A program made the translations under genes and the position numbers. Positions 18,496-52,353 of a stretch of 63,492 nt of DNA are shown one piece after another (the stretch's first letter is position 1; each line of letters starts with the position of its first letter). Source of the DNA: Betaproteobacteria bacterium (GTDB lineage: Bacteria; Pseudomonadota; Gammaproteobacteria; Burkholderiales; Casimicrobiaceae); assembly GCA_029884335.1 (NCBI GenBank), contig JAOUIA010000014.1, positions 1 through 63,492 on the forward strand, given 5' to 3'. The notes beneath the pieces were generated by a model. The model worked only from the letters and a program-made list of their open reading frames with translations. It had not been told where the DNA came from and searched no databases.

Positions 18496-18520
18496 GGCGT
18501 CGGCATTATCGCCCAGGCGG

Positions 18521-18670
18521 CCGATGCAAAAGGCGTTCGCACGGGAGGCGAGGACACGAGGCGTTGGAGTCGCGCCTCTTGCATCGGGTCGAAGTCAGGG
18601 CGGGCGCCTAGGGGCGGCCCGTCGGCGCCCGCCGGCAACGGCACGCAACAACACGCGTCATGCAACGCCT
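18521..18670 (-). repeat. 150-bp three-hairpin dispersed repeat, copy A
   Basis: About 84% identical, without gaps, to 46487-46636 by hand count. Hairpins: GATGCAAAAGGCG with CGCCTCTTGCATC; GGCGGGCGCC with GGCGCCCGCC (the intervening block is identical in both copies); and GCACG with CATGC. Changes relative to copy B give A-C mismatches on the plus strand but G-U pairs on the minus strand, so a minus-strand RNA is suggested. It lies between dtd and the adaptor gene, both minus. The rest of that gap (18671-18743) shows nothing recognisable. Confidence 0.8.
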
Positions 18671-23870: not shown

Positions 23871-24329
23871 GTGCAGATCATCCTCCTCGAGAAGGTCGGC
23901 AACGTCGGCAACCTCGGCGACGTGGTGAAGGTCAAGGACGGCTTCGCCCGCAACTACCTGATCCCGAAGGGCATGGCGAAGCGCGCCACGCCCGAGAACC
24001 TGAAGCTCCTCGAAGCGAAGCGCAGCGAGCTCGAAGCCGCCGCGGCGGAGAAGCTCGCCGCGGCGCAGGCGCTCGCCGGCAAGCTCGAAGGGCAGACGGT
24101 GCGGGTCGTGCAGAAGGCCGGCGTGGACGGCCGCCTGTTCGGCTCGGTGGGCACGATCGACATCGCCGAGGCGCTCGGGCGCGACGGCGTGAAGATCGAG
24201 AAGGCGCAGGTGCGCCTGCCCGCCGGCCCGCTCAAGACGGTCGGGGAACACCCGGTGACGATCGCGCTGCACAGCGACGTGCTCGCGCACGTCACCGTCA
24301 CGGTCGTCGGCGAGACCGCGCAGAGCTGA
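23871..24329 (+). CDS. rplI: 50S ribosomal protein L9
   Basis: 152 aa, starting at GTG 23871 behind GGGAGGA. The N-terminal domain [23 protein letters not shown], the long connecting helix (about 45-75) and the C-terminal RNA-binding domain are all complete. Last gene before a strong terminator. Confidence 0.98.
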
Positions 24330-24426: not shown

Positions 24427-24615
24427 CTAGTGCAGTGAGTCGGTAGTTCGTTGACGCATTCCCGCCGGGTCGAGGCGCCCCGCACAATCCGGCCGCGTTC
24501 GCTTCCGGCCGCGACGCCCCTGCGCGGCGAGGTTGGGCACCTGCCGCGCAGGGGCAACAATGGCTGGGAGCGAACTGGCCGGATTGTTCAACGAACTGCC
24601 GACTCACTGCACTAG
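24427..24615 (+). repeat. 189-bp fold-back (MITE-like) element, copy 1
   Basis: The ends are 28-base inverted repeats (24427-24454 and 24588-24615, one T-G wobble), each closing with CTAG. Inside are nested pairs ACAATCCGGCC/GGCCGGATTGT and CCCCTGCGCGGC/GCCGCGCAGGGG. A second copy is at 38002-38188. It has no coding capacity and fills most of the 325-base gap between rplI and dnaB, which otherwise holds only the rplI terminator and a short dnaB leader. Its right end followed by AAT gives TAGAAT (24613-24618), a possible dnaB -10 box. Confidence 0.85.
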
Positions 24616-24654
24616 AATGACCGTTTTCGCCGCGCTTCCCTCCCGTTCCCGCCG

Positions 24655-26022
24655 ATGCCCGACGACCCGCAAGTCGATGCGCTGAAGCTGCCGCCGCACT
24701 CGATCGAGGCGGAGCAGTCCGTGCTCGGCGGCCTCATGCTCGACAACGACGCGGCCGACCGCATCGGCGACGTCCTAGGGCCCGAGGACTTCTACTCGGA
24801 CGCGCATCGCCTGGTCTACGACGCGGCGATGCGGCTGATCGCGGAGGGCCGGCCGGCCGACGTGGTCACGGTGTCCGAGGCGCTCGACTCGACGCGCAAG
24901 CTCGACTACGTCGGCGGGCTCGCGTACCTCGGCGCGCTGGTGGGCAACGTGCCGACCGCGGCGAACATCCGCCACTACGCGGCGATCGTGCGCGAGCGCT
25001 CGATCCTGCGCCAGCTCGCCGGCACCGCGGGCGAGATCGCCGAAGCCGCCTACCGGCCGATGGGGCGCAGCGCGCGCGAGGTGCTCGATCTCGCCGAGGC
25101 GAAGGTGCTGCACATCGCCGAGCGGGGCTCGCGCGGCCAGCAGAACTTCGCCGAGATCGGGAAGCTCCTGAGCAGCGTCGTCGAGCGCATCGAGGAGCTC
25201 TACAACCGCGACGACCCCTCCGACGTGACGGGCGTGGCGACCGGCTTCACCGACCTCGACCGCCAGACTGCGGGGCTGCAGCCGGGCGACCTCGTCATCG
25301 TCGCCGGAAGACCGAGCATGGGCAAGACGTCGCTCGCGCTCAACATCGGCGAGCACGTGGCGCTGCACGTCAAGCGCCCGGTGGCGGTGTTCTCGATGGA
25401 GATGGGCGCGAACCAGCTCGCGATGCGGATGATCGGTTCGGTCGGGCGGCTGCCCGCGCAGCACCTGCGCACCGGCCGCCTGCAGCCGGAGGACTGGGAG
25501 CGCCTCTCCGCGGCGCTCGGCCACCTCAACGACGCGCGCATCCTGATCGACGAGACGCCGGCGCTCTCGGCGATCGAGGTCCGCTCGCGCGCGCGGCGGA
25601 TGATGAAGCAGTACGGCGACCTCGGGCTGGTCATCGTCGACTACATCCAGCTGATGCAGGCGACCTCGCAGGGCGAGAACCGGGCGACGGAGATCTCCGA
25701 GATCTCGCGGTCGCTGAAGGCGCTGGCGAAGGAGCTCAAGGTCCCCGTCATGGCGCTCTCGCAGCTCAACCGCTCGCTGGAGCAGCGGCCGAACAAGCGG
25801 CCGGTGATGTCGGATCTTCGCGAGAGCGGAGCCATTGAACAGGATGCGGACGTGATCCTGTTCATCTACCGCGACGAGGTCTACAACCCGGACACGCAGG
25901 ACAAGGGCGTGGCCGAGATCATCATCGGCAAGCAGCGCAACGGCCCGATCGGCACGGTCCGCCTCACGTTCCTCGGCGAGTACACGCGCTTCGAGAACTT
26001 CGCCCAGCCCGGCAGCTACTGA
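24655..26022 (+). CDS. dnaB: Replicative DNA helicase DnaB
   Basis: 455 aa hexameric 5'-3' helicase. The N-terminal primase-interacting domain (about 10-115; PPHSIEAEQSVLGGLM) and the RecA-like domain are both present. Walker A GRPSMGKT lies near residue 220, Walker B in LVIVDYIQLM near 330, and SQLNRSLEQRPNKRP follows. No intein is visible. The leader lies next to a fold-back repeat. The glycosyltransferase gene follows 7 bases after the stop and may be read through. Confidence 0.98.
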   Translation: MPDDPQVDALKLPPHSIEAEQSVLGGLMLDNDAADRIGDVLGPEDFYSDAHRLVYDAAMRLIAEGRPADVVTVSEALDSTRKLDYVGGLAYLGALVGNVPTAANIRHYAAIVRERSILRQLAGTAGEIAEAAYRPMGRSAREVLDLAEAKVLHIAERGSRGQQNFAEIGKLLSSVVERIEELYNRDDPSDVTGVATGFTDLDRQTAGLQPGDLVIVAGRPSMGKTSLALNIGEHVALHVKRPVAVFSMEMGANQLAMRMIGSVGRLPAQHLRTGRLQPEDWERLSAALGHLNDARILIDETPALSAIEVRSRARRMMKQYGDLGLVIVDYIQLMQATSQGENRATEISEISRSLKALAKELKVPVMALSQLNRSLEQRPNKRPVMSDLRESGAIEQDADVILFIYRDEVYNPDTQDKGVAEIIIGKQRNGPIGTVRLTFLGEYTRFENFAQPGSY

Positions 26023-36721: not shown

Positions 36722-36889
36722 GCTAGCCGGGCGGCGGGCGCGGCACAAGCCATGGGGGTCACGCGGGGTGGCGATCGCAACCGGTGTGGTGGAAAGCGCA
36801 CAGCGGTCCGCCCCGGTTGACCTGGGGCAAGGCTCGGGCCGGCGGCCGTTCGCAGAATGGCCCAGTCGGCTCACGCCAGGGGTTCGTCC

Positions 36890-38005
36890 ATGCCTGCCCT
36901 CCTGCGCCACGTCGTTGCCGCCTTGCTCGCCTGCGGCGCCTTGCTTGCCCACGCCGCCGGCGAGGAAGTGCTCGTCGGCCAGTCGGTGTCGCTGACCGGC
37001 CCGGTCGCCGAGCACGGGCAGGGCGTCGCACAGGGCGCCAAGCTCTACATCGACGCGGTCAACGCCGCCGGGGGCGTCGGCGGGCGGCGCATCGTGCTCA
37101 GCGTTCTCGACGACGCCGGCGACGCGAGGCGTTCGGGCGAGAACGCGAAGCAGCTGATCGAGCGCGACGGCGTGGTGGCGCTGTTCGCCGGCGTCGAAGG
37201 CGGGCCGTGCGTCGCGCAGCTGAAGGAGGCCGTGGCGCACAGCGTCCCGCTCGTGGCCTGCGTGGCCGGGTCGCCGGAGATGCGCGAGCCGTTCACGCGC
37301 ATGAGCTTTCCGGTGCGCTCGCCGCACTTCGGCGAGTTCGCCAAGCTGCTCGACATCGCGAAGTCGTACGGGATGAAGCGCGTCGCCTTCTTCCACGCCG
37401 ACTCGGACACCGGCCGGCGGCACCTTGCCAACGTCCGCAAGCTCGCCGAGGCGCGCGGGCTCGACGTCGTGCCGCTGGTCGCGGCGTCCGGCGCGAAGCC
37501 CGACGACCTGGCGCGCGCGCTCGCCGAGGCGCGCGTCGACACCGCGTTCAACCACGGCTCGTACGCAGCCTACGCGGCGCTGATCAAGGCCGCGCGCGCC
37601 CGGGGCAGCACGGTGCAGTTCATGGCCGTGAACTCCGGGGCCGCGCAGATGGCGCGGCTGCTCGGCGCGGACGCCAAGGGGCTGATCTTCACGCAGGTCG
37701 TGCCCTTCCCTTGGGCGGTGGCGGTGCCGGTGGTCAAGGAGTACCACCAGGCGCTCGCGCGCTCGGCGCCCGGGGCGCAACCGTCGTTCTCGGGCCTCGA
37801 GGGCTACGTGAGCGCGAAGGTGCTCGTCGCCGGCCTGCGCGCCGCGGGCAAGGATGCCAGCCGCGCCGGCATCGCGAAGGGGCTCGAGTCGCTCGGCACG
37901 CTCGACGTGGGCGGCATGACCGTCGCCTTCGCGCCGAACTCGCGCACCGGATCGACGTTCGTCGACACGGTGATCGTCGCCGCCGACGGGCGCTTTTCGC
38001 GCTAG
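36890..38005 (+). CDS. LivK-like branched-chain amino-acid-type ABC substrate-binding protein
   Basis: 371 aa periplasmic binding protein starting at ATG 36890, with a signal peptide cut near HAAGEE (about residue 24). VLVGQSVSLTGPVAEHGQGVAQGAKLYIDAVN (split) and the two-lobed LivK fold are clear. There are no permease or ATPase genes beside it, so it is an orphan component or sensor. Its TAG stop (38003-38005) is formed by the CTAG end of the fold-back repeat. Confidence 0.9.
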   Translation: MPALLRHVVAALLACGALLAHAAGEEVLVGQSVSLTGPVAEHGQGVAQGAKLYIDAVNAAGGVGGRRIVLSVLDDAGDARRSGENAKQLIERDGVVALFAGVEGGPCVAQLKEAVAHSVPLVACVAGSPEMREPFTRMSFPVRSPHFGEFAKLLDIAKSYGMKRVAFFHADSDTGRRHLANVRKLAEARGLDVVPLVAASGAKPDDLARALAEARVDTAFNHGSYAAYAALIKAARARGSTVQFMAVNSGAAQMARLLGADAKGLIFTQVVPFPWAVAVPVVKEYHQALARSAPGAQPSFSGLEGYVSAKVLVAGLRAAGKDASRAGIAKGLESLGTLDVGGMTVAFAPNSRTGSTFVDTVIVAADGRFSR

Positions 38006-38188
38006 TGCGGTGAGTCGGCAGTTCGTTGAAGAACGTGCGCTAGGTCGAGGCGCTCCGCACAATCCGGCCGCGCTCGGTTCCAGCCGCGACGCCCCTGCGC
38101 GGCGAGGTTGGCCACCTGCCGCAGTGGCAACAACGGCTGGGAGCGAACTGGCCGGATTGTTCGACGAACTGCCGGCTCGCTACACTAG
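38002..38188. repeat. 187-bp fold-back (MITE-like) element, copy 2
   Basis: Second copy of the element at 24427-24615, with CTAG at both ends and 29-base imperfect inverted repeats in which four of five mismatches are G-U type on the plus strand. It fills the whole space between two convergent genes, and its left and right CTAG supply their TAG stop codons. It could act as a bidirectional terminator. Confidence 0.85.
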
Positions 38189-38811
38189 ACGAGAAGGCGC
38201 ATGCCCAGCGCCACGAAGATCGCGCCGGCGGCGCGGTCGAGCCAGGTGCCGATGCGCGGACGGCGCGCGAGCCGCTCGCCGAGGCCGCCCGCGAAATAGC
38301 CGATCGCGCCGAAGACGAGCGCCGCCTGCAGCGTGAACACGACCCCGAGCTGCGCGATCTGCCAGGCGACGCTGCGCCGGGCGTCGACGAATTGCGGCAG
38401 GAACGCGAGGAAGAACAGGATCACCTTCGGATTGACGGCGTTGGCGACGAGGCCCTTGGCGAACAGCCGGCGCGCCGGCTCGGCGGGCGCGGCAGCCGCA
38501 GGCGCGTCGAGCGGTCGCGCGTGGCGGATGGCCTGGATGCCGAGCCAGACGAGGTAGGCGCCGCCCACGATCTTCAGCACGGTGAACGCGCGCGGCGAGG
38601 CGGCGATCAGCGCGCCGACGCCCAGCGACGCGAGCAGCGTGTGATTGAGGCACCCGAGCGCGCAGCCCAGCCCGAAGGCCACGCCCGCGCGGGCGCCGCG
38701 CGCCATGCCGAGGCCCAGCACCATCAGGTTGTCGGGGCCGGGCGCCAGCGTGACCAGCAGCGCGGCGGCGAGGAACGCGGCGAGCTGCGGAACCGTCAGC
38801 AGCGCGTCCAT
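38185..38811 (-). CDS. LysE family amino-acid exporter
   Basis: 208 aa membrane protein with five to six hydrophobic helices and the signature TLAPGPDNLMVLGLGMARGARAG near residues 21-43 (key part PGPDN). It belongs to the LysE/RhtB superfamily that exports amino acids. Last gene of the GT41-ArnD-like-bcp-GNAT-lysE operon. Its stop codon lies in the fold-back repeat. Confidence 0.92.
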   Translation of the reverse strand: MDALLTVPQLAAFLAAALLVTLAPGPDNLMVLGLGMARGARAGVAFGLGCALGCLNHTLLASLGVGALIAASPRAFTVLKIVGGAYLVWLGIQAIRHARPLDAPAAAAPAEPARRLFAKGLVANAVNPKVILFFLAFLPQFVDARRSVAWQIAQLGVVFTLQAALVFGAIGYFAGGLGERLARRPRIGTWLDRAAGAIFVALGMRLLV

Positions 38812-45279: not shown

Positions 45280-46482
45280 ATGTCCCTCGCAGGCCGCGCG
45301 CGCGTCGCCGTGAATCGCTTGGCGCTCAAGTTCCTGCAGTTCCCGCGCCCGTTCATCCTCACGGGGGCAGGCTCGTCGCTGGCGCTGTGCCGCGAGATCG
45401 CCAACACGGGCGCGCGGCGGGTCATGGTGATCACCGACAGGCCGCTCTTCGACCTCGGCCTGGTCGCGCCCGCGTGCAAGGCGCTCGCCGACGCGGGCGT
45501 CGCCGTCGAGGTCTTCCACGACGTGGTGCCCGATCCGGCCTACGAGGTCGTGCTCGGCGGCGTGGAGCGCCTCAAGCGCTTTCGCGCCGACGCGGTGCTG
45601 GCGGTCGGCGGCGGCTCGTCGATCGACTGCGCGAAGGCGATCCTCCACTGCCACGCCAACGACGCGCACCCGGCGCGGCTCACCGGCGTGTGGCTGTACG
45701 CGCTGCCGCGCAGGCGCGGGCTGCCGTTGTACGCGGTGCCCACCACGGCGGGCACCGGATCCGAGGTCACCATCGTCTCGGTGGTGTCCGACGTCCAGTC
45801 GCGGACGAAGCGGCCGATCATCGATCCCAAGCTGGTGCCGGCCATGGTCGCGCTCGACCCCGAGCTGATGGCGGGATTGCCGCCGCACATCACCGCCGCC
45901 ACCGGGATGGACGCGCTCACGCACGCGGTGGAGGCGTACGTGTCCTCGCTGGCGGACGAGCAGACCGACGTGCTCGCGCGCGCGGCCACCGCGACCATCC
46001 TCAGCCAGCTGCCGGTGGCCTACGCCAACGGCCGCGACCTCGCGGCGCGCGAGCGCATGGCGATCGCCTCGAGCATGGCGGGGCTCGCGTTCACCCGGGC
46101 CGGGGTGGGCTACGTGCACGCCATCGCCCACCAGCTCGGCGCGCTCTACCATTTGCCGCACGGGCTCGCCAACGCGATCGTGATGCCGCACGTGCTCGAC
46201 GTCTCCAAGGGCCACTGCGCGGTACGGCTGGCGGACCTCGCGCGCACGGCGGGCCTCGCGCGCGAAGGCGCGACGGATGCCGCGCTCGCCGACGCCTTCA
46301 TCGCGCGCATCCGCGCGATGAACGAGGCGATGGGCATCCCCTCCAGGGTGAAGGAACTGCGCCGCGAGGACTTCGGCACCATCGTGCGCAACGCCTTCGC
46401 CGAAGCGCACGGCACCTACGGCGTGCCGCGCTACCTCGGCAAGGCGGAGGCGCGCGCGCTGCTCGAGGGCATGCTCCCCTAG
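45280..46482 (+). CDS. Iron-containing alcohol dehydrogenase
   Basis: 400 aa, starting at ATG 45280 behind AGAGGAAA. The NAD-binding loop GGGSSIDCAK is near residue 113, followed by PTTAGTGSEVT and the metal ligands in DALTHAVEAYVS and HAIAHQLGALYHLPHG. The alcohol or semialdehyde substrate is unknown. Ten bases separate it from the FAH gene. Confidence 0.93.
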   Translation: MSLAGRARVAVNRLALKFLQFPRPFILTGAGSSLALCREIANTGARRVMVITDRPLFDLGLVAPACKALADAGVAVEVFHDVVPDPAYEVVLGGVERLKRFRADAVLAVGGGSSIDCAKAILHCHANDAHPARLTGVWLYALPRRRGLPLYAVPTTAGTGSEVTIVSVVSDVQSRTKRPIIDPKLVPAMVALDPELMAGLPPHITAATGMDALTHAVEAYVSSLADEQTDVLARAATATILSQLPVAYANGRDLAARERMAIASSMAGLAFTRAGVGYVHAIAHQLGALYHLPHGLANAIVMPHVLDVSKGHCAVRLADLARTAGLAREGATDAALADAFIARIRAMNEAMGIPSRVKELRREDFGTIVRNAFAEAHGTYGVPRYLGKAEARALLEGMLP

Positions 46483-46486
46483 CAGG

Positions 46487-46636
46487 CCGATGCAAAAGGC
46501 GTTCGCAGGGCAGGTGAGGATCCGGGGGCTTGGTGCTGCGCCTTTTGCATCGGGTCGACGCCAGGGCGGGCGCCTAGGGGCGGCCCGTCGGCGCCCGCCT
46601 CGAACGGCACGCAACACCGCGTGTCGTGCGACGCGC
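46487..46636 (-). repeat. 150-bp three-hairpin dispersed repeat, copy B
   Basis: Partner of 18521-18670. Stem 1 (GATGCAAAAGGCG/CGCCTTTTGCATC) and stem 2 (GGCGGGCGCC/GGCGCCCGCC) are perfect here, and stem 3 is GCACG/CGTGC. It lies between the convergent alcohol dehydrogenase and rlmI genes, 4 bases after the former's stop, so it can also serve as a terminator. Confidence 0.8.
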
Positions 46637-50086: not shown

Positions 50087-52159
50087 ATGCCCGCACGCAG
50101 CCGCAGCAAGCGAACGCCGCTGACCGTCGAGGCGCTGTGGGCGATCCGGCGCGTGGGCTCGCCCACGCTCTCGCCCGACGGTGCGCACGCCTGCGCGTCC
50201 GTGACGAGCTACGACATGGAGCGCAACGAGGGCGAGACCGCGCTGTGGCTGTTCCCGACGCACCTCGCAGCCTCCGGCGGCGGCCGGCCGCGCAAGCTCA
50301 CCGCCGGCGACAAGGACAGCGAGCCCGCGTGGTCGCCGGACGGGCGCCACATCGCGTTCGCGGCGAAGCGCCACGGCGACGAGGAGCCGCAGCTCTACGT
50401 GATCGCGCCCGATGGCGGCGAGGCGCGTCGCGTGACGAAGCTGGCCAACGGCGTGGCGGCGCTGAAGTGGTTTCCCGACGGCAGGCGGATCGCCTTCATC
50501 TCGTGGGTGTGGCCGGAGCTCGCCACCGAGGCACAGCAGGCGAAGCGGAAGAAGGACCGCGCCGGGGACAAGGTCAAGGCGCACGTGACCGAGCGCGGCG
50601 AGTTCCGCTACTGGGACCACTGGCTCGCCGACGGGCGCGAGCCGCATCTCTTCGCGTGCGACGTCGCCACCGGCCGGTGCCGGGACCTCCTCGCGGGCAC
50701 GGGCCTGCGGCTGCGCCCGTGGCAGCCGGGCGCGGACGAGTACGACATCTCGCCCGACGGGCGCGAGGTCGCGCTCACGTTCGATCCGGGCGACGAGCCG
50801 CGGATGATGACGCAGACCGACGTGGTCGTGCTCGACCTCGCCAGCGGCAAGTGGCGCAACCTCACCGCCGACAGCGGCATGTCGGACGAGCACCCGCGCT
50901 ACTCGCCCGACGGCCGCCACATCGCCTACCACGCCTACGATACGAAGCGGGCATTCAACGACCAGGGCCACCTGCGACTTCTGGATCGGCGCGCCGGCGC
51001 GTGGTCGCGGCTCGCCCCCGCGCTCGACCGCGCCACCACGCACGTCCGGTGGAGCGCGGACGGCGCCGCGCTCCTGTTCCTCTGCGAGGACCGCGGCCGC
51101 GTGGAGCTGCACCGCCTGCCGCTGGGTGCGGCGACCTCCGAGCGCATCGTCGCCGGCGGCACGCTGGGCGGCTTCGCGCGCTCGCGCGACGGCGCAGTCA
51201 TTGCGTTCGACCGCTCGACCTCCCACCACCCCCCGCAGCTCTTCGCGGTGCGCGCCGATGGCGGCGGCGAGCGCGCGATCGAACGCCTCAACGAGGGGCT
51301 GCTCGCCCGTCACGCGCTGGGCGAGACGCGCGAGTTCACGGTCAAGGGGTGGAAGGGCGAGCCGGTGCAGGTCTTCGTCACCTATCCGCCGGGGTTCGAT
51401 CCCGCCAGGAAGTGGCCGCTGATGCACTCGATCCACGGCGGTCCGCACAACGCGCACCACGACGCGTGGCACTTCCGCTGGAACACGCAGGTGTTCGCCG
51501 GCGCGGGCCGCATCGTCGCCTGCGTCAACTACCACGGCTCGTCGGGCTTCGGGCAGGCGTTCCTCGAGACGATCACCGGGCGCTACGGGGAGAAGGAGCT
51601 CGCCGACCACGAGGCGGCGACCGACTTCCTGGTGGCGCAGGGATACGTCGACCGCGAGCGGCTCACCGCCACCGGGGGCAGCTACGGCGGGTTCATGGTC
51701 GCGTTCATGAACGGCCACGTCGATCGCTACAAGGCGTTCGTCTGCCACGCCGGCTGCTACGACTGGGTGAGCATGATGGCCACCGACGGCTACCGCTTCT
51801 TCGCCTCGGAACTCGGCGCGTTCCACTGGGAGGACGAGGCGCGGGTGCTGCGCCAGTCGCCGCATCACTACGTGCGCAACGCGAAGACGCCGACGCTCGT
51901 CGTGCACGGCGAGCAGGACTTCCGCGTGCCGGCGACGCAGGCGCTGCAGTACTACGACACGCTGAAGGCGAAGGACGTGCCCGCGCGGCTCGTGTACTTC
52001 CCCGACGAGAACCACTGGATCCTCAAGCCGCAGAACTCGCGGCTGTGGTACCGGGAGTTCTTCGCGTGGCTCGAGCGCTGGGACGGCAAGCGTGCGGCGA
52101 AGCCTGCGCGCGGCAAGGCGAAGCGCGCGAGGAAGCGGGGCGCCGCTCGGTCTCGCTAG
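50087..52159 (+). CDS. S9 family prolyl-oligopeptidase-type peptidase
   Basis: 690 aa. The N-terminal beta-propeller (about 20-420) has repeated WSPDGRHIAF-type blades. The alpha/beta-hydrolase domain carries the nucleophile in GGSYGGFM (Ser about 531), Asp in EQDFRVP (about 609) and His in ENHWI (about 642). No signal peptide, so it is cytoplasmic. It ends with a basic Lys/Arg/Ala tail. It probably degrades short peptides. Confidence 0.93.
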   Translation: MPARSRSKRTPLTVEALWAIRRVGSPTLSPDGAHACASVTSYDMERNEGETALWLFPTHLAASGGGRPRKLTAGDKDSEPAWSPDGRHIAFAAKRHGDEEPQLYVIAPDGGEARRVTKLANGVAALKWFPDGRRIAFISWVWPELATEAQQAKRKKDRAGDKVKAHVTERGEFRYWDHWLADGREPHLFACDVATGRCRDLLAGTGLRLRPWQPGADEYDISPDGREVALTFDPGDEPRMMTQTDVVVLDLASGKWRNLTADSGMSDEHPRYSPDGRHIAYHAYDTKRAFNDQGHLRLLDRRAGAWSRLAPALDRATTHVRWSADGAALLFLCEDRGRVELHRLPLGAATSERIVAGGTLGGFARSRDGAVIAFDRSTSHHPPQLFAVRADGGGERAIERLNEGLLARHALGETREFTVKGWKGEPVQVFVTYPPGFDPARKWPLMHSIHGGPHNAHHDAWHFRWNTQVFAGAGRIVACVNYHGSSGFGQAFLETITGRYGEKELADHEAATDFLVAQGYVDRERLTATGGSYGGFMVAFMNGHVDRYKAFVCHAGCYDWVSMMATDGYRFFASELGAFHWEDEARVLRQSPHHYVRNAKTPTLVVHGEQDFRVPATQALQYYDTLKAKDVPARLVYFPDENHWILKPQNSRLWYREFFAWLERWDGKRAAKPARGKAKRARKRGAARSR

Positions 52160-52208
52160 TCTTGAAGTGTCAGAAGGTTCTTGCGCTGGAGCATGAGTCT
52201 GGATCATC

Positions 52209-52304
52209 CGTCGTCCCCGCGCAGGCGGGGACCCAGTGTCTTTGAACGCCGGCATCGGCAGGCAATTCGAAAGTCGCTGGGTCCCCGCCTGCGCGGGGAC
52301 GACG
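52209..52304. repeat. GTCCCCGC...GCGGGGAC dispersed palindrome
   Basis: Two perfect 28-base inverted arms (52209-52236 and 52277-52304) flank a 40-base centre. Each arm is itself partly self-complementary (CCCCGCgcagGCGGGG). This type of repeat is common between genes in GC-rich proteobacteria. It sits between convergent S9 peptidase and TraR-like genes, where it could end both transcripts. Confidence 0.85.
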
Positions 52305-52353
52305 AACGAAACGAACGCGCGCGCCCTGAAGATCGCGTGGGGAGCGCGGCGAT

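Follow-up and report, generated by a model that had tools for sequence, protein, structure and literature searches.

CTAG-flanked hairpin elements with IS630-like ends form a dispersed family in a betaproteobacterial genome

The two units in the window

The window, that is, the whole stretch of 63,492 nucleotides analysed here, contains two short units that begin and end with CTAG. The first lies between rplI and dnaB, and the second is flanked by two convergent genes (Table 1). Direct reading of the sequence confirmed the coordinates that the initial annotation had assigned to the two units, as well as the CTAG at both ends of each. The units are 88% alike, their ends are CTAGTGCAGTGAGTCGG-like, and none of the open frames that cross them looks, by eye, like a convincing gene.

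The terminal inverted repeats had been described as near-perfect. This is true of copy 1, whose 28-bp arms contain a single mismatch (96% identity), but not of copy 2, where only 23 of the 28 positions pair and five are non-Watson-Crick. The mismatch in copy 1 and four of the five in copy 2 are G-U compatible, as had been noticed earlier. The RNA of copy 1 is predicted to fold with an energy of -147.2 kcal/mol on the plus strand (z = -14.8; z = -13.6 on the minus strand), and the z scores of copy 2 are -8.2 and -7.0 on its two strands. None of 200 shuffled sequences folded as well, for either copy on either strand, in agreement with the earlier view that the whole unit can form one hairpin.

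Table 1. Positions of the two units, their parts and their neighbours
Feature	Positions	Strand	Remarks
Probable MITE copy 1	24427..24615	+	189 bp, in the rplI/dnaB interval; sequence read, 8-copy family, empty site in G015
Left terminal inverted repeat, copy 1	24427..24454	+	28 bp, starts with CTAG
Right terminal inverted repeat, copy 1	24588..24615	-	28 bp, complementary at 27/28
Left CTAG, copy 1	24427..24430	.	Target copy; TA is the duplicated part for IS630 types
Right CTAG, copy 1	24612..24615	.	Basis: single CTAG at the G015 empty site
rplI (ribosomal protein L9)	23871..24329	+	Left neighbour of copy 1
dnaB (replicative helicase)	24655..26022	+	Right neighbour of copy 1
TAGAAT, -10-like hexamer upstream of dnaB	24613..24618	+	Its TAG lies within the right CTAG of copy 1
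Probable MITE copy 2	38002..38188	+	187 bp, flanked by two convergent genes
Left terminal inverted repeat, copy 2	38002..38029	+	
Right terminal inverted repeat, copy 2	38161..38188	-	
Periplasmic binding protein gene	36857..38005	+	Stop TAG 38003-38005 inside the left CTAG of copy 2
LysE-type transporter gene	38185..38811	-	Stop TAG 38187-38185 inside the right CTAG of copy 2
Second own-genome family, copies			Outside the window: L187, L193, L195, L197, L199, L201, L203, L205, L207, L209, L211, L213

Copies in the genome and the corresponding sites in relatives

The genome that contains the window is a draft of 3,659,727 bases in 120 contigs and is 95.6% complete. A BLAST search of it, in which 40 of the 152 candidates from a first look were scored, returned 32 rows, some of them inverted matches of a copy to itself, and found eight near-full copies (L001-L008) on six contigs and at least four fragments (L009, L011, L016 and L017). 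The near-full copies are 77-95% alike, with a mean of 86%, and contig C118 carries two of them, one in each orientation. The whole-genome search proposed in the initial annotation has thus turned the pair of units into a dispersed family.

Outside this genome, the element gave no match at E 1e-5 in plasmids and phages (blastn). The exact end pattern was found in two stretches of a genome contig collection and in one of a viral contig collection, and these three matches were dismissed as chance because the inverted partner end is absent from the DNA examined. Among 300 genomes of the order the end pattern is present in the own genome and at one site in G350, which shows no partner end; among 369 genomes of the class it is present in the own genome and at one site in G571. 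A search of 61 genomes, the own genome included, gave only three matches elsewhere, of 31-42 bases, with at most 13 candidates scored per genome. This search is weak evidence of absence, since a relative that appeared blank in it, G015, carries a family with similar ends. A search of the literature, by words and not by sequence, did not find the family.

G015 is the closest relative compared, with 89% identity over the 200 N-terminal residues of DnaB, and is treated here as a sister species of the host. The rplI-dnaB interval is 130 bases long in G015 and 325 in the window. At this place G015 has GGCG-CTAG-AATG and the window has GGCG-CTAG-element-CTAG-AATG, and the BLAST pieces from the two sides of copy 1 share seven bases in G015, the CTAG among them. 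The empty site of copy 1 is therefore exact on both sides.

An orthologous stretch in G015 was compared for seven copy loci (L001, L002, L003, L004, L007, L008 and the fragment L016). No element of the family found in the window (hereafter the first family) is present at any of the seven. Its end is absent at six of them, where the best matches reach 13-16 of 28 bases, and at the L003 locus another element matches at 20 of 28. The expectation that relatives would show a single CTAG was borne out at three of the seven loci, but not at the other four. Besides copy 1, the site of L008 contains a single CTAG (AGG-CTAG-AATGG) and is exact on the right side only, where the BLAST piece begins at that CTAG; the left piece ends 66 bases short. 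At the L007 site a MAFFT alignment gives TTG-CTAG-CGCGG, and in G015 this CTAG doubles as the stop codon for a minus-strand frame that is coding-like and lies on the same side. The L004 site lacks the element and reads CTAC, and the sites of L002 and L016 lack it with no clear target. The 195-bp element at the L003 locus lies beside the same cobD-like gene and ends in the CTAG of that gene's stop codon. Two different MITE families are therefore found at the same stop-codon CTAG, one in G015 (L169, 538-738) and one in the own genome (L003), an apparent reuse of the target in two species.

Two further loci lie outside this set. Both genes flanking L005 are present in G017 and in other genomes without the element, a comparison that is not base-exact. 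For copy 2 there is no empty-site comparison, as none of the other 21 genomes of the genus has its LysE neighbour at more than 45% identity. Of 22 flank pieces available for comparing relatives, 13 were used and nine were omitted for length.

These sites bear on two other readings of the units. A short palindromic extragenic repeat could also be a REP or REPIN-type sequence moved by a Y1 (RAYT) transposase. REPINs are not known to combine a length of about 190 bp, 28-bp terminal inverted repeats, flanking CTAGs and an empty site with one CTAG, and this origin is barely credible.

The initial annotation had also considered a structured RNA repeat. Such an RNA, or a bidirectional terminator kept by selection, would suit the very stable fold, the position of copy 2 between convergent genes and the G-U compatibility of four of the five changes in its arms. 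In an alignment of the eight copies, moreover, 93.0% of the cells pair and the covariation score is 0.100, compared with 25-42% and at most 0.048 in slid controls. However, any inverted repeat would exceed slid controls in pairing, and low values in them are expected here, where one of the aligned sequences provided the structure. Shuffled alignments behave much like the real one: their pairing is 92.6% and is as high as observed in 105 of 500; 32 of 500 have as many as the seven pairs changed on both sides; and 47 of 500 reach the covariation score. The proposed check for covariation among the copies thus gave nothing clearly above shuffles. The terminal arms of all eight copies contain, by hand count, 15 G-T and 11 A-C pairs, which is no clear strand preference, and the window has no match to an Rfam family at gathering scores. 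The empty sites in G015 and the two orientations on contig C118 also speak against a conserved RNA. What the arm pairing shows is a set of inverted repeats decaying chiefly through transitions; the long hairpin follows from these repeats and is no evidence of a functional RNA. Selection on the RNA fold is not supported, and this explanation is considered very improbable.

Ends, target and transposase

Families with similar ends were found in other genomes and again in the own genome. G035, which belongs to another genus of the same family, has three elements of 168-180 bp with no internal likeness seen, and 13 copies were read in G015. With the G015 element as query, 34 rows came from G015 itself, and G001, G002, G003 and G013 contributed one each. 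The 19 rows from the own genome represent a second MITE family there, with ends CTAGTGTCCCGTACCGGAAGTTCC, which was read in 12 copies of 195 bp each; their mean identity is 94%, and the family is less diverged than the first. Contigs C40 and C36 start inside matches to the second family, which may break the assembly. Fragments of the two families appear, by eye, side by side at L016 (1500-1690). One end-like sequence at L197, from position 2107, matches at 19 of the 24 bases after CTAG and is a possible remnant of the first family.

The probable type of the partner transposase was suggested by a blastn search of plasmids with a 30-base element end. It gave seven weak records (E = 5), of which two covered the whole query, both in Acidovorax carolinensis plasmids. 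In the one examined, the match is the left end of an insertion sequence (IS) annotated as IS630 family, and it is only because the match fell on an IS end that a record with E = 5 is counted here. The right end of this IS repeats its first 24 bases in inverted orientation without a single change, and both ends begin with CTAG. Three other records were set aside: no transposase was seen in H7, and in H4 and H5 the IS630 gene lies more than 1 kb away from the match.

The left end of the Acidovorax IS630 agrees with the consensus end of the element at 23 of 28 bases. Relatives of its transposase with 80% amino acid identity are encoded in G007 and G018, which belong to the same genus as the host; their ISs run from CTAG to CTAG, with ends that match the consensus at 20-21 of 28 bases. 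Over the 24 bases that follow CTAG, the IS630 ends match the element at 16-19; of 477 distinct CTAG contexts in the loci examined, 366 match it at 3-9. The proteins were assigned to IS630 by NCBIfam NF033545 (259-275 bits, cut-off 100) and Pfam DDE_3.

In a scan of 13 loci with IS630 genes, which tolerated one mismatch and extended 300 bases into the flanks, CTAGTG ends were found on both sides in eight (L107, L108, L111, L112, L113, L115, L162 and L163), on one side only in L114 and on neither side in L160, L161, L164 and L165. In seven of the eight ISs the transposase frame has no internal stop and ends at the TAG of the junction, and only that of L108 stops before it. The transposase frame of IS870 is said to have been described by Fournier and co-workers in 1993 as likewise ending in the TAG of the target junction.

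The search for an IS with the same inverted ends has thus been answered in part: IS630 ends agree at 20-23 of 28 bases, but the match is partial and no such IS was met in the own draft genome, where neither PF13358 nor a protein search detected an IS630 transposase. As the assembly is a draft, the partner may be either lost or unassembled.

The initial annotation had compared the CTAG ends with the 4-base duplications of IS701- and IS5-type transposases. In PMC2170065, an IS630-family element is reported to insert in vitro almost only at TA and to duplicate TA, and the title of Tenzen and Ohtsubo (1991), as cited there, states that IS630 of Shigella prefers TA within CTAG. As IS630-family elements duplicate TA, the supposed duplication of CTAG is probably a duplication of TA in a CTAG target. 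The CTAG target itself and the single CTAG in the relative agree with the earlier reading.

The ends of 36 copies (eight of the first family, 12 of the second, three from G035 and 13 from G015) were tallied. Of these 72 ends, 69 retain the inner G, 56 the A, 54 the T and 57 the outer C. The boundaries chosen for L005 and for several of the G015 ends are probably off by at least one base, so that the tally serves as a guide only. It would fit an element that includes the G and duplicates TA in a target that is mostly CTAG, and is modest evidence for it. Insertion at TA, preferably in CTAG, is found, and the duplication of TA and that of CTAG are not fully separable.

If the MITE were moved by a transposase of the IS5 or IS701 type, a true 4-base duplication would leave CTAG at both ends. 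There is a precedent in MITEPsy1 of Pseudomonas syringae, which, according to PMC3189936, makes duplications of CTAG or YTAA and is attributed to ISPsy2 (IS5, with a question mark in the table). However, the ISs with similar ends and CTAG flanks that were met belong to IS630, and the better conservation of the inner G argues modestly against this origin. The ends thus appear to point to IS630 and not to IS701 or IS5, and a transposase of the latter types is improbable.

The number of copies, the shared ends and the one-CTAG sites in the relative uphold the earlier suggestion of a non-autonomous mobile element with a CTAG target. The units are short, have terminal inverted repeats of about 28 bp, are dispersed, and have element-free one-CTAG sites in G015. 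They are very probably non-autonomous MITE copies moved in trans by an IS630-family transposase. It is possible to picture the process as follows. An IS630-family (Tc1/mariner-like) transposase, acting in trans, would cut next to the terminal G of the element. The element would then be pasted into the TA of a CTAG, and duplication of this TA would produce CTAG at both ends.

The family is new, and the kind of element, an IS630-type MITE, is already well known. Among its closest counterparts by description is RUP of Streptococcus pneumoniae, which, according to PMC2229807 and PMC3049150, is a 107-bp MITE with the ends of IS630-Spn1. Both are small and non-coding, with IS630-like inverted ends, a TA target, a tight hairpin and inferred mobilisation in trans; the same papers give RUP about 110 copies and an IS common in the species, compared with eight near-full copies and no IS630 found here. 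A preference for TA within CTAG is shared with IS630 of Shigella and IS870 of Agrobacterium vitis, which, unlike the present element, encode a transposase and are autonomous. MITEPsy1 is also a bacterial MITE with CTAG or YTAA flanks and, according to PMC3189936, has been shown to transpose, but it is 100 bp long, its 18-bp ends differ in sequence, and its movement is attributed to ISPsy2. Correia/NEMIS and ERIC are described in PMC2229807 as MITE-like, with TA at their ends and stable folds, and occur in other hosts.

Stop codons, the dnaB upstream region and other repeats

Several of the insertion sites coincide with gene punctuation. The CTAGs of copy 2 supply the stop codons of both convergent genes. 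In the own genome, the TAG stop of a coding-like frame lies in an end of three of the eight copies of the first family (L003, L006 on both sides, and L007) and of seven of the 12 copies of the second; the same is true of all three G035 elements and of five of the 13 in G015. Two more copies of the first family, L001 and L008, adjoin TAGAAT. At L005 (1497-1515) and L016 (1500-1507) the neighbouring frames enter the end of the element and stop inside it, so that the element provides their last codons.

The rplI-dnaB interval was readable in 13 relatives, from 18 loci tried. All 13 have TANAAT upstream of dnaB, at 23-39 bases from the dnaB start in 12 of them and at 122 in G007. A consensus promoter scan gave no sigma-70 site upstream of dnaB. 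From its recurrence, the TAGAAT before dnaB may be a -10 box.

The window contains 22 CTAGs where 67.2 are expected. Leaving out those in the two elements, 17 remain, and nine of these hold the stop of a coding-like frame (at least 90 codons, GC3 of at least 0.75 and GC3 > GC1 > GC2). A special function of the link to stop codons was set aside on this ground. Duplication of TA would leave a stop codon or a TAGAAT box intact; CTAG being rare, and about half of the other CTAGs in the window being TAG stops, surviving insertions are often expected there or at TAGAAT. The siting at stop codons is thus largely explained by where CTAG occurs.

It is conceivable, if rather unlikely, that an IS630/IS870-like lineage and its MITEs have become specialised for gene punctuation. 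The preference for CTAG would then be self-enforcing, as the transposase frame needs the TAG stop of the target, insertion at a stop codon or a -10 box would be nearly harmless, and the 190-bp hairpins would serve as insulators or bidirectional terminators between convergent genes and be kept in part for this role. Such precise targeting is neat, but the distribution of CTAG largely accounts for it. What the case illustrates is how a transposon that prefers CTAG and duplicates its target can insert at stop codons, or next to a promoter-like box, and leave them unbroken. It is a clear case, with an exact empty site in a sister species, of an otherwise ordinary kind of element.

Several other repeats were noticed. 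An inverted repeat with 40-nt arms (90%) at 52204-52309 of the window lies between two coding-like frames, whose TAG stops are in the CTAGs at 52156 and 52354; L011 (445-542) has a repeat that resembles it at about 80%. A third type of repeat, 167 bp long, is present at 18502-18668 and 46468-46634 of the window; the two are 83% alike and have inverted pieces that resemble GATGCAAAAGGCG and, further in, a palindrome around CTAG. The flanks of L009 and L017 are, by eye, similar in wording to this type. Finally, positions 63257-63442 of contig C117 in the own genome (G000) match 22242-22427 of C98 at 99%, at the end of C117, a possible assembly join.
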